NCBI GenBank assembly: GCA_027492795.1
Contig: JAPUEB010000030.1
Span: 1-64,000, forward strand
Length of the DNA: 64,000 bases
From: Chryseobacterium sp.
GTDB lineage: Bacteria; Bacteroidota; Bacteroidia; Flavobacteriales; Weeksellaceae
Direction of reading: 5' to 3'
This document shows positions 5,963-48,965 of this stretch, piece after piece (within the stretch, counting starts at the first letter, position 1; each line of letters opens with the position of its first letter). A program made the translations under genes and the position numbers. Under the pieces are notes generated by a model, which was given only the letters and a program-made list of their open reading frames with translations, had not been told where the DNA came from and searched no databases.

Positions 5963-5983
5963 AAGAATTAGCCATATTTTTGT

Positions 5984-6035
5984 CATTCCGAAGGAATCTA
6001 AATTTTTTTGTTGAGATTCCTTCGGAATGACAAAA
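5984..6035. repeat. Palindromic repeat, GTCATTCCGAAGGAATCT family
   Basis: Two inverted arms (GTCATTCCGAAGGAATCT and its reverse complement) around a ~14-nt spacer. It sits directly upstream of the M14 peptidase start. The same arms recur at 18777-18836 and 48899-48965, and in variant form inside the two MITE copies (15720-15902 and 47235-47418). Confidence 0.8.
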
Positions 6036-15506: not shown

Positions 15507-16101
15507 TTTCTTTTGAATGAAGATGCAAAGTAAGCGAGAAACAAATGATAAAACCAAACATTTGTTCAAAAAACTTAATTAAACTTTTGGTTTATACTTG
15601 CTATATTTTTTTATCTCAACAAACGCAAAGATTGATTGATCAATTATCCTTAATTCTTGTTCGCAAAGGCGCTTTGCTTAGCCAATTATAATTGTTATAT
15701 AATGTTTTAATAATATAAATTGAGGTCATTACTTAATTGCATACTATTATAATATTTTGATTTTGATAATCAATCAGATACAGAAATATGCGCAAAAATT
15801 GTCATGCTGAAAGCATCTCTACAAAGATATTTAGATTCCTACGGAATGACAAACACTGTGTTTATAAGGATTGTTTAATATGAAGTTAAGTAATGACCTC
15901 AAAATATAAATTTCCAAAATCAATTGCTAAGTAAAACGCCTTTGCGATCGTAATTTAAAAGTTTTTTGTAAAAAATTCCTTGCGCTCTTTGCGATTAAAT
16001 AAAATAGCACAAAACTTTTTTCGATGATTTCGCTATTTTTTATTTACAATCCTAACACTTAATTTTTCGTAAATTTACCCTCTTCAAATTCAGGGCAAAC
16101 A
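15507..16101. other. 595-bp gap before mutS: nested repeats, no gene
   Basis: No reading frame here looks coding. It holds an inverted pair of GCAAAGGCGC-family arms (about 15656-15688 and 15921-15953, then a further CTTTGCGATTAAA part at 15975-15999) and, nested in their loop, a complete 183-bp MITE-like element (15720-15902). The remaining bases are AT-rich leader of mutS. Confidence 0.75.
15720..15902. mobile_element. MITE-like element, copy 1
   Basis: 183 bp with perfect 17-bp terminal inverted repeats TTGAGGTCATTACTTAA (15720-15736 and 15886-15902). It is bracketed by a perfect 8-bp direct repeat AATATAAA (15712-15719 and 15903-15910), as expected for target-site duplication. It carries no gene. 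The interior contains a GTCATGCTGAAAGC...TCCTACGGAATGAC stem also seen as stand-alone palindromes. Copy 2 at 47235-47418 aligns through its whole length in opposite orientation. Confidence 0.88.
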
Positions 16102-18693: not shown

Positions 18694-18776
18694 GTTTGTG
18701 TTGGAGAGTTTGAGTGTTGGAGAGTTTTATTTTTATGTGTTTTAAATTTTTACTAAAAATAATTGCGCAAAATTTG

Positions 18777-18836
18777 TCATTCCGAAGGAATCTAAACAAT
18801 GTGAATTAAACAATTTAGATTCCTTCGGAATGACAA
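18777..18836. repeat. Palindromic repeat, GTCATTCCGAAGGAATCT family
   Basis: Arms GTCATTCCGAAGGAATCTAA and its exact reverse complement flank a ~20-nt loop between mutS and the DUF2809 gene. It is preceded by GCGCAAAATTT, a sequence also present beside the same stem in both MITE copies. Confidence 0.8.
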
Positions 18837-23391: not shown

Positions 23392-23703
23392 GAGCAGCTG
23401 TGTGAATTGTGGGTTAAGAGAAAATTAATTTTAATCAATTTTGCATTTAGCGGTAAATTTAATCGCAAGGAACGCAATTTTTTTTTGATTGTTAAACTTT
23501 TACGTTAGCAAAGGCACTTCGTTTAGCAAAAGTCGAGAAAAATTCGCAATTTATTTGCTAAGCACAGCGTCTTTGCGAATGAAATTGATGTTTTTTCTCA
23601 AAATTTCCTTGCAAGCTATAGCGTTAAAAATTATTTTGGGCTTTTAGTTTACTTTTTATATGCAAAGGGTGTTAATTTTAATCAAAGATAACAACTTTTG
23701 GAA

Positions 23704-29333: not shown

Positions 29334-29566
29334 TATCGCAAGGTATGCAAGGATTTTTCTAAATCTTTCTGCTGATTACGTCCGCAAAGTCGCTTCGCTC
29401 AGCAATTGGTATTTATTTTTTTAACTCTTTATTTTGTTTATTAAAATTTGTTCTTCTAATCTTTATTACTGATATTTTCGATTGCTAAACGAAGTGCCTT
29501 TGCGTTCAAAAATATTCTCAATCATTTCAAAAACTCTTTGCGTTCTTTGCGATTAAACATTAGTCA
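29334..29566. repeat. GCAAAGGCGC-family inverted pair, right of the GxxExxY gene
   Basis: TATCGCAAGGTATGCAAGG ... CCGCAAAGTCGCTTCGCTCA at 29334-29401 is mirrored by ATTGCTAAACGAAGTGCC ... CTTTGCGATTAAAC at 29481-29566. The right arm runs into the last codons of murC (stop near 29553). No coding frame is visible between them. Confidence 0.75.
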
Positions 29567-47144: not shown

Positions 47145-47234
47145 TGTTTTTTTTGATGAAAATAAAATTTCATTCAAATTTACGTTTTAAAATTGTGGTA
47201 GAGAGTGTTTTCAAGACAAGCGAATAAAAATTTT

Positions 47235-47418
47235 TAGAGGTTATAACTTAACTTCATACTTAACAATCCCTATAAACAGGGGGTTTGTCATTCCGTAGGA
47301 ATCTAAATAATCTTTGTAGAGATGCTTTCAGCATGACAAACTTTGCGCATATCATTGTATTTGCTTGATAATCAATGTTAAAATTTCATTGTTGTATGTA
47401 ATTAACTAATGACCTCAA
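47235..47418. mobile_element. MITE-like element, copy 2
   Basis: 184 bp, inverted relative to copy 1. Terminal repeats TAGAGGTTATAACTTAA (left) and TTAACTAATGACCTCAA (right) match the copy 1 termini in 14 and 16 of 17 bases. Perfect 8-bp direct repeats AAAATTTT flank it (47227-47234 and 47419-47426). The central GTCATTCCGTAGGAATCT ... GATGCTTTCAGCATGAC stem is shared with copy 1. No coding sequence. Confidence 0.88.
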
Positions 47419-47480
47419 AAAATTTTATATCAAATGAAATTTTTATTTGCTAATGCAGAACGAAAAATCAATGCAGGAAA

Positions 47481-48898: not shown

Positions 48899-48965
48899 GT
48901 TTGTCATTCCGTAGGAATCTAAATTATTTGAGCAATACTGTTGAGATTCCTACGGAATGACAAAC
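48899..48965. repeat. Palindromic repeat, GTCATTCCGTAGGAATCT family
   Basis: GTTTGTCATTCCGTAGGAATCT and its reverse complement (AGATTCCTACGGAATGACAA) flank ~24 nt. It resembles the central stem of the MITE but lacks the TIRs. Confidence 0.8.

Follow-up and report, generated by a model that had tools for sequence, protein, structure and literature searches.

The analysed window comprises 64,000 nucleotides of a Chryseobacterium contig (JAPUEB010000030.1, positions 1 to 64,000). Within it, an element of 183 bp without coding capacity, referred to here as copy 1, occupies positions 15720-15902 on the forward strand, between two divergent genes and ~0.2 kb from each. The gene to its right is presumably mutS-like, judging from its first residues. 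Copy 1 is bounded by terminal inverted repeats (TIRs) at 15720-15736 (+) and 15886-15902 (-), which are identical at 17 of 17 bp, with 85% complementarity over 33 nt. Directly outside lie the two copies of a target-site duplication (TSD), AATATAAA, at 15712-15719 and 15903-15910 (no strand assigned). The sequence-only reading of this DNA had described a MITE-like element with perfect 17-bp TIRs and an 8-bp TSD at 15712-15910, and both the coordinates and the AATATAAA duplication hold. None of 20 first-order resamples of the window yielded a perfect 17-bp inverted pair of comparable spacing, and the four TIR matches of the window compare with an average of 0.25 in shuffled sequence. The element folds strongly (z = -5.9), and an Rfam scan of the window returned no family at gathering score. 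A second copy of 184 bp lies on the reverse strand at 47235-47418, with the TSD AAAATTTT at 47227-47234 and 47419-47426.

Copy 1 is itself contained in the loop of a host palindromic repeat of the GCAAAGGCGC family, the left arm of which lies at 15660-15682 (+) and the right arm at 15926-15948 (-). These arms, between which the earlier reading had placed the element, are real. The spacer separating them is 243, which becomes 52 bp on subtraction of the element and one duplication. Further GCAAAGGCGC pairs in the window are uninserted, at 23505-23579 and 29381-29506, with spacers of 29 and 80. Among 18 loci fetched (L160-L177), eight carry an arm pair with a spacer of 30-82 (L160, L162, L165, L168, L170, L173, L176 and L177; L165 is the same place as L173, and the pair in L160 is the one found at 29381 in the window), whereas ten are single-armed. 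The arm, GCAAAG-GCG-CTTTGC, is palindromic in itself, and several other places in the genome are one-armed. A joined-flank query of the host genome gave 48 matches, weak or strong, and paralogous GCAAAGGCGC palindromes without the MITE are present there. Because the 52-bp loop without the MITE falls within the range of the other palindrome pairs, the natural reading of the order of events is that the palindrome came first and the MITE second.

Searching the host genome at the DNA level returned 56 matches, which were sorted into 25 MITE copies or fragments and 31 matches to the core only, or nearly so; the element itself is present roughly twenty times. Seventeen full-length copies could be bounded, with a mean identity among copies of 79-87%; the best identity of copy 1 to any other is 87.4%. 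Fourteen of the 17 measure 183-184 bp, and the other three reach 206-231 bp through extra core sequence. In these longer variants (L025, L022 and L024) the core has an additional GATTCGGCGTAGCC-type module. An exact 8-bp TSD flanks 13 of the full copies, one has a 9-bp and one a 7-bp duplication, and two have none. This count leaves out L020, L023, L027 and L028, which are single-ended or truncated, and also L026 (256 bp, with weak ends and no duplication), with which it would be 13 of 18. When left flanks were mispaired with the right flanks of other copies, exact 8-bp matches arose in only 2 of 272 combinations, so the duplications are not produced by the AT-rich flanks. L011 and L012 are identical copies at two sites with different TSDs (TATAATTT and AGAAAGTT), which suggests that the element has moved fairly recently. 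Every one of the 17 full copies is intergenic, and none overlaps an ORF of at least 90 aa. The element therefore is a MITE, being short, TIR-bounded, geneless and multicopy with site-specific TSDs, as the intergenic copies, the exact duplications and the identical copies at different sites establish. Further copies, on which the earlier proposal had depended, are thus present, and most of them have duplications.

The centre of copy 1 is a hairpin, TGTCATGCTG..CGGAATGACA, at 15800-15851 (+), which belongs to a dispersed repeat and also occurs free-standing, without the termini, in the host and in related genera. The strong folding, this dispersed core and the exclusively intergenic placement of the full copies would suit a repeat with a structural or regulatory function, of the REP or terminator-like sort, with ends that are merely complementary and no history as a transposon. 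Such a repeat would not, however, be expected to show the fixed ends reflected in the uniform copy length, nor duplications that are specific to each site and nearly absent from mispaired flanks, and we consider this explanation extremely improbable. The MITE may nonetheless have a secondary role as a terminator or regulator.

In order to find complete elements with the same ends, a 23-base terminus pattern was scanned over a named genome collection, which yielded six stretches. Two of these are complete insertion sequences (ISs) that encode an IS1595-family transposase and are flanked by exact 8-bp TSDs: L089 (954 bp, TSD TATGTTTA) in Pedobacter sp. UBA4863, and L093 (960 bp, TSD TAAATTTT) in a Bacteroidetes MAG. 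Their TSDs were also read straight at the terminus-pattern matches. The L093 insertion looks as if it cut a recombinase-like gene, pieces of which lie on both sides. Protein searches added L122 (TSD TAAAATTT), L123 (CAACATTT; its transposase gene has an in-frame stop), L132 (TTATATTT), L139 (TCAAAGAA) and L140 (AAGATTTT) on Persicobacter plasmids, and L185 (TAAGAATT), which has the ends TTGAGGTCATAA/CTGAGGTCATAG and lies in G012, which belongs to the same family as the host. Altogether, eight insertions of complete ISs with the matching kind of ends (TAGAGGTC/TTGAGGTC) were found in several Bacteroidota genera, with lengths of 954-969 bp. All eight encode an IS1595 transposase and are flanked by an exact 8-bp TSD; the end search itself selected for a duplication that was exact or nearly so.

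The assignment to IS1595 is based on profile scans for L089 and L093 and on protein similarity and alignment for the other six transposases. L089 and L093 scored 164.8 and 168.7 bits against NF033547 (the NCBIfam IS1595 family transposase; cut-off 75), and 65.4 and 67.4 bits against PF12762 (DDE_Tnp_IS1595; cut-off 27). For the zinc ribbon PF12760 (cut-off 25.4), L093 lies above the threshold with 27.6 bits and L089 below it with 21.2. Paired Cys motifs are visible in the transposase alignment, an N-terminal zinc ribbon being a feature of all IS1595 groups but IS1016. Two D residues are conserved in the alignment, and the third position is H (IHQVK), with no evident E.

Of 17 transposase loci examined for their ends (L122-L138), three have T[AT]GAGGTC ends (L122, L123 and L132; 63-72% identity), while 13 have no credible end pair under the criteria used or run off their contigs; L131 (63% identity), among those 13, is a fragment lying at the edge of its contig. 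G280 contains a decayed relative (L187): its match is interrupted by 11 stops, yet similar ends and a duplication agreeing at 7 of 8 positions are still recognisable. More distant IS1595 relatives, L186 (54% identity) and L125 (41%), have other ends, which indicates that the ends follow the transposase. Divergent IS1595 transposases are also found in several genomes of the host's family (G103, G143 and G233), where one in-frame TAG recurs in many copies, possibly through decay before amplification or through readthrough.

The two ends of these ISs are distinguishable, since the 5' and 3' ends diverge past approximately base 12 (in L185, ..TATATTTTCATATC versus ..GCTTAATTACATACC). The ends of the host MITE, ..ACTTAACTTCATAT and ..AGTTAATTACATAC, are similar to this L185 pair, and in copy 1 it is the left TIR that resembles the 3' end of IS1595-type ISs and the right TIR that resembles the 5' end. 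L185 is the closest IS in the same family, and its ends match only approximately. Past ~26 bp, the MITE has no evident sequence in common with the ISs, as judged by eye. One 5'-type end together with one 3'-type end is, by comparison of the termini, what an internally deleted IS would be predicted to keep.

When 320 genomes from the host's family were searched for the terminus with at most one mismatch, nine had matches, the host's own included. Outside the host genome, MITE-like pairs were found in genus g9, mainly in G267, which was taken as Epilithonimonas bovis DSM 19482 and in which a DNA search gave 40 matches. The consensus ends of the E. bovis MITEs (TAGAGGTCATAAGATATTTTCATATC and TAGAGGTCATAACTTAATTACATAC, compared with TTGAGGTCATAATATATTTTCATATC at the 5' and CTGAGGTCATAGCTTAATTACATACC at the 3' end of L185) are one of each IS type, nearly letter for letter, and of the 14 E. 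bovis pairs listed only 3 were read by eye as carrying an exact 8-bp TSD. In G264, G342 and G277, the TIR-like matches fall within or beside long ORFs and were taken as chance; we take the ORFs in G264 and G342 to be RHS-like from their reading frames. The single exact terminus in G018 has no partner and may be a chance match. Two single-end matches on viral contigs were also set aside, as a search for the partner end shows no element (L095, and L096, for which part of the locus was covered).

Within the host genome itself, the transposases of L089 and L093 gave no match as queries, PF12762 gave none at E values up to 1 (2 of 14 control genomes had hits), and no IS with MITE-type ends was seen. 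These transposase searches covered IS1595 and Y1_Tnp. The assembled host sequence thus shows neither an IS with these ends nor an IS1595 transposase, so that only the ends, compared across genomes, identify the partner. The assembly consists of 46 contigs and is 97.25% complete, so an IS1595 copy in a gap is possible. The sequence-only reading had called for a DDE-type transposase acting in trans, with none encoded in the window; this is supported, and on sequence grounds the family can now probably be named as IS1595. The search that it proposed, for the termini beside a transposase gene, succeeds in other genomes, where the gene is of the IS1595 family, and gives no such pair in the host genome.

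This combination, no IS1595 transposase in the host and identical copies (L011 and L012) suggesting fairly recent movement, is what would be seen if a resident transposase of another family recognised the MITE ends and moved the element. Against this, the only complete elements with these ends, eight insertions in several genera, are all IS1595, and the 31 TIR-like matches in the host genome were, in the stretches read, MITE copies, solitary ends or one coding-region match, none of them seen to bound a transposase. Mobilisation by another family is thus considered very unlikely. The element is instead, with high confidence, a non-autonomous MITE of the IS1595 family, in which the termini of a ~0.95-kb IS surround a host hairpin, with the transposase supplied in trans and a stagger of 8 bp. 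According to this model, two termini of an IS1595-type IS of ~0.95 kb would have become joined around the host hairpin repeat. An IS1595 transposase, with its zinc ribbon and DDE domain, would then have acted in trans, binding both ends and integrating the element at AT-rich intergenic sites, where a stagger of 8 bp would account for the duplication of that length; copy 1 would have landed in the loop of a GCAAAGGCGC palindrome that was already in place. As for the source IS, it may have been lost from the genome, may never have been fixed, or may lie within the unassembled few percent. Of these parts, mobilisation in trans by the IS1595 transposase and loss of the source IS are what we infer.

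The hairpin core has a distribution of its own. A MITE query matched 12 of 59 genomes searched, the host's included, and outside the host nearly all matches were core-only. Free-standing TTTGTCATTCCG..CGGAATGACAAA hairpins of the core class occur in the window at 5981-6032, 18775-18835 and 48902-48962, and are terminator-like or REP-like. The host genome has seven matches to Y1_Tnp (RAYT-type), six of them above the cut-off; the core hairpin is found in none of the seven loci (~3.3 kb each), and a RAYT origin of the core is unsupported. In a Parapedobacter MITE (L094), which is 194 bp long and flanked by the duplication AAAAATCA, the core is of the host-like TTTGTCATTCC..GAATGACAAA type. The E. 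bovis MITE core differs, being TTCTCGCAGATT..AGCGAGAA, and versions of this hairpin are free-standing in other Epilithonimonas genomes (L063, L064 and L065). It is conceivable, though doubtful, that IS1595-type termini have repeatedly captured dispersed host hairpins, TGTCATTCC/GGAATGACA in the host and Parapedobacter and TTCTCGCAGATT/AGCGAGAA in Epilithonimonas bovis. If such captures were independent, these MITEs would disperse REP-like hairpins, which might be terminators or regulatory structures, across the genomes of Bacteroidota. That MITEs of one terminus class should have dispersed-type hairpin cores in three hosts is a modest surprise, and suggests a way, open to testing, in which REP-like hairpins could spread. 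More generally, the analysis links a group of dispersed repeats in Bacteroidota with IS1595, and indicates that terminus scans of other genomes can lead from an orphan MITE family to its transposase family.

In titles and the opening parts of abstracts, the literature on IS1595, MITEs, Bacteroidetes, Flavobacteriia and Chryseobacterium gave no description of this element, ISfinder lying outside that scope. Members of IS1595 usually have a TSD of 8 bp, according to PMC8101967, and the Bacteroidota IS1595 ISs described above share with the MITE the kind of termini, the 8-bp TSD and the two distinguishable ends; they differ in being 954-969 bp long and transposase-coding, whereas the MITE is geneless. 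A comparable element is listed in Table 4 of PMC3852290, namely an ISHwa6-related MITE of the IS1595 family from Haloquadratum walsbyi, with a length of 165 bp, inverted repeats of 25 and an 8-bp direct repeat. Where that paper treats such MITEs generally, only the ends are common to the partner IS. By description, not by sequence, the two are alike in being non-autonomous with long inverted repeats and an 8-bp repeat, at 183 bp here against 165 bp. The ISHwa6-related MITE has an archaeal host and a named putative partner IS, whereas the present one has a Bacteroidota host, no detectable partner in the genome, and a dispersed host hairpin as its core. The RUP, NEMIS and Nezha MITEs, as summarised in PMC3733652, are 70-300 bp long with TIRs of 15-30 bp and strong secondary structure, often lie beside coding sequences and are mobilised in trans. 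Their kinship to the present element is by way of life only and not by sequence comparison. Set beside these systems, the orphan MITE is genuine, a neat representative of an already familiar type of element.
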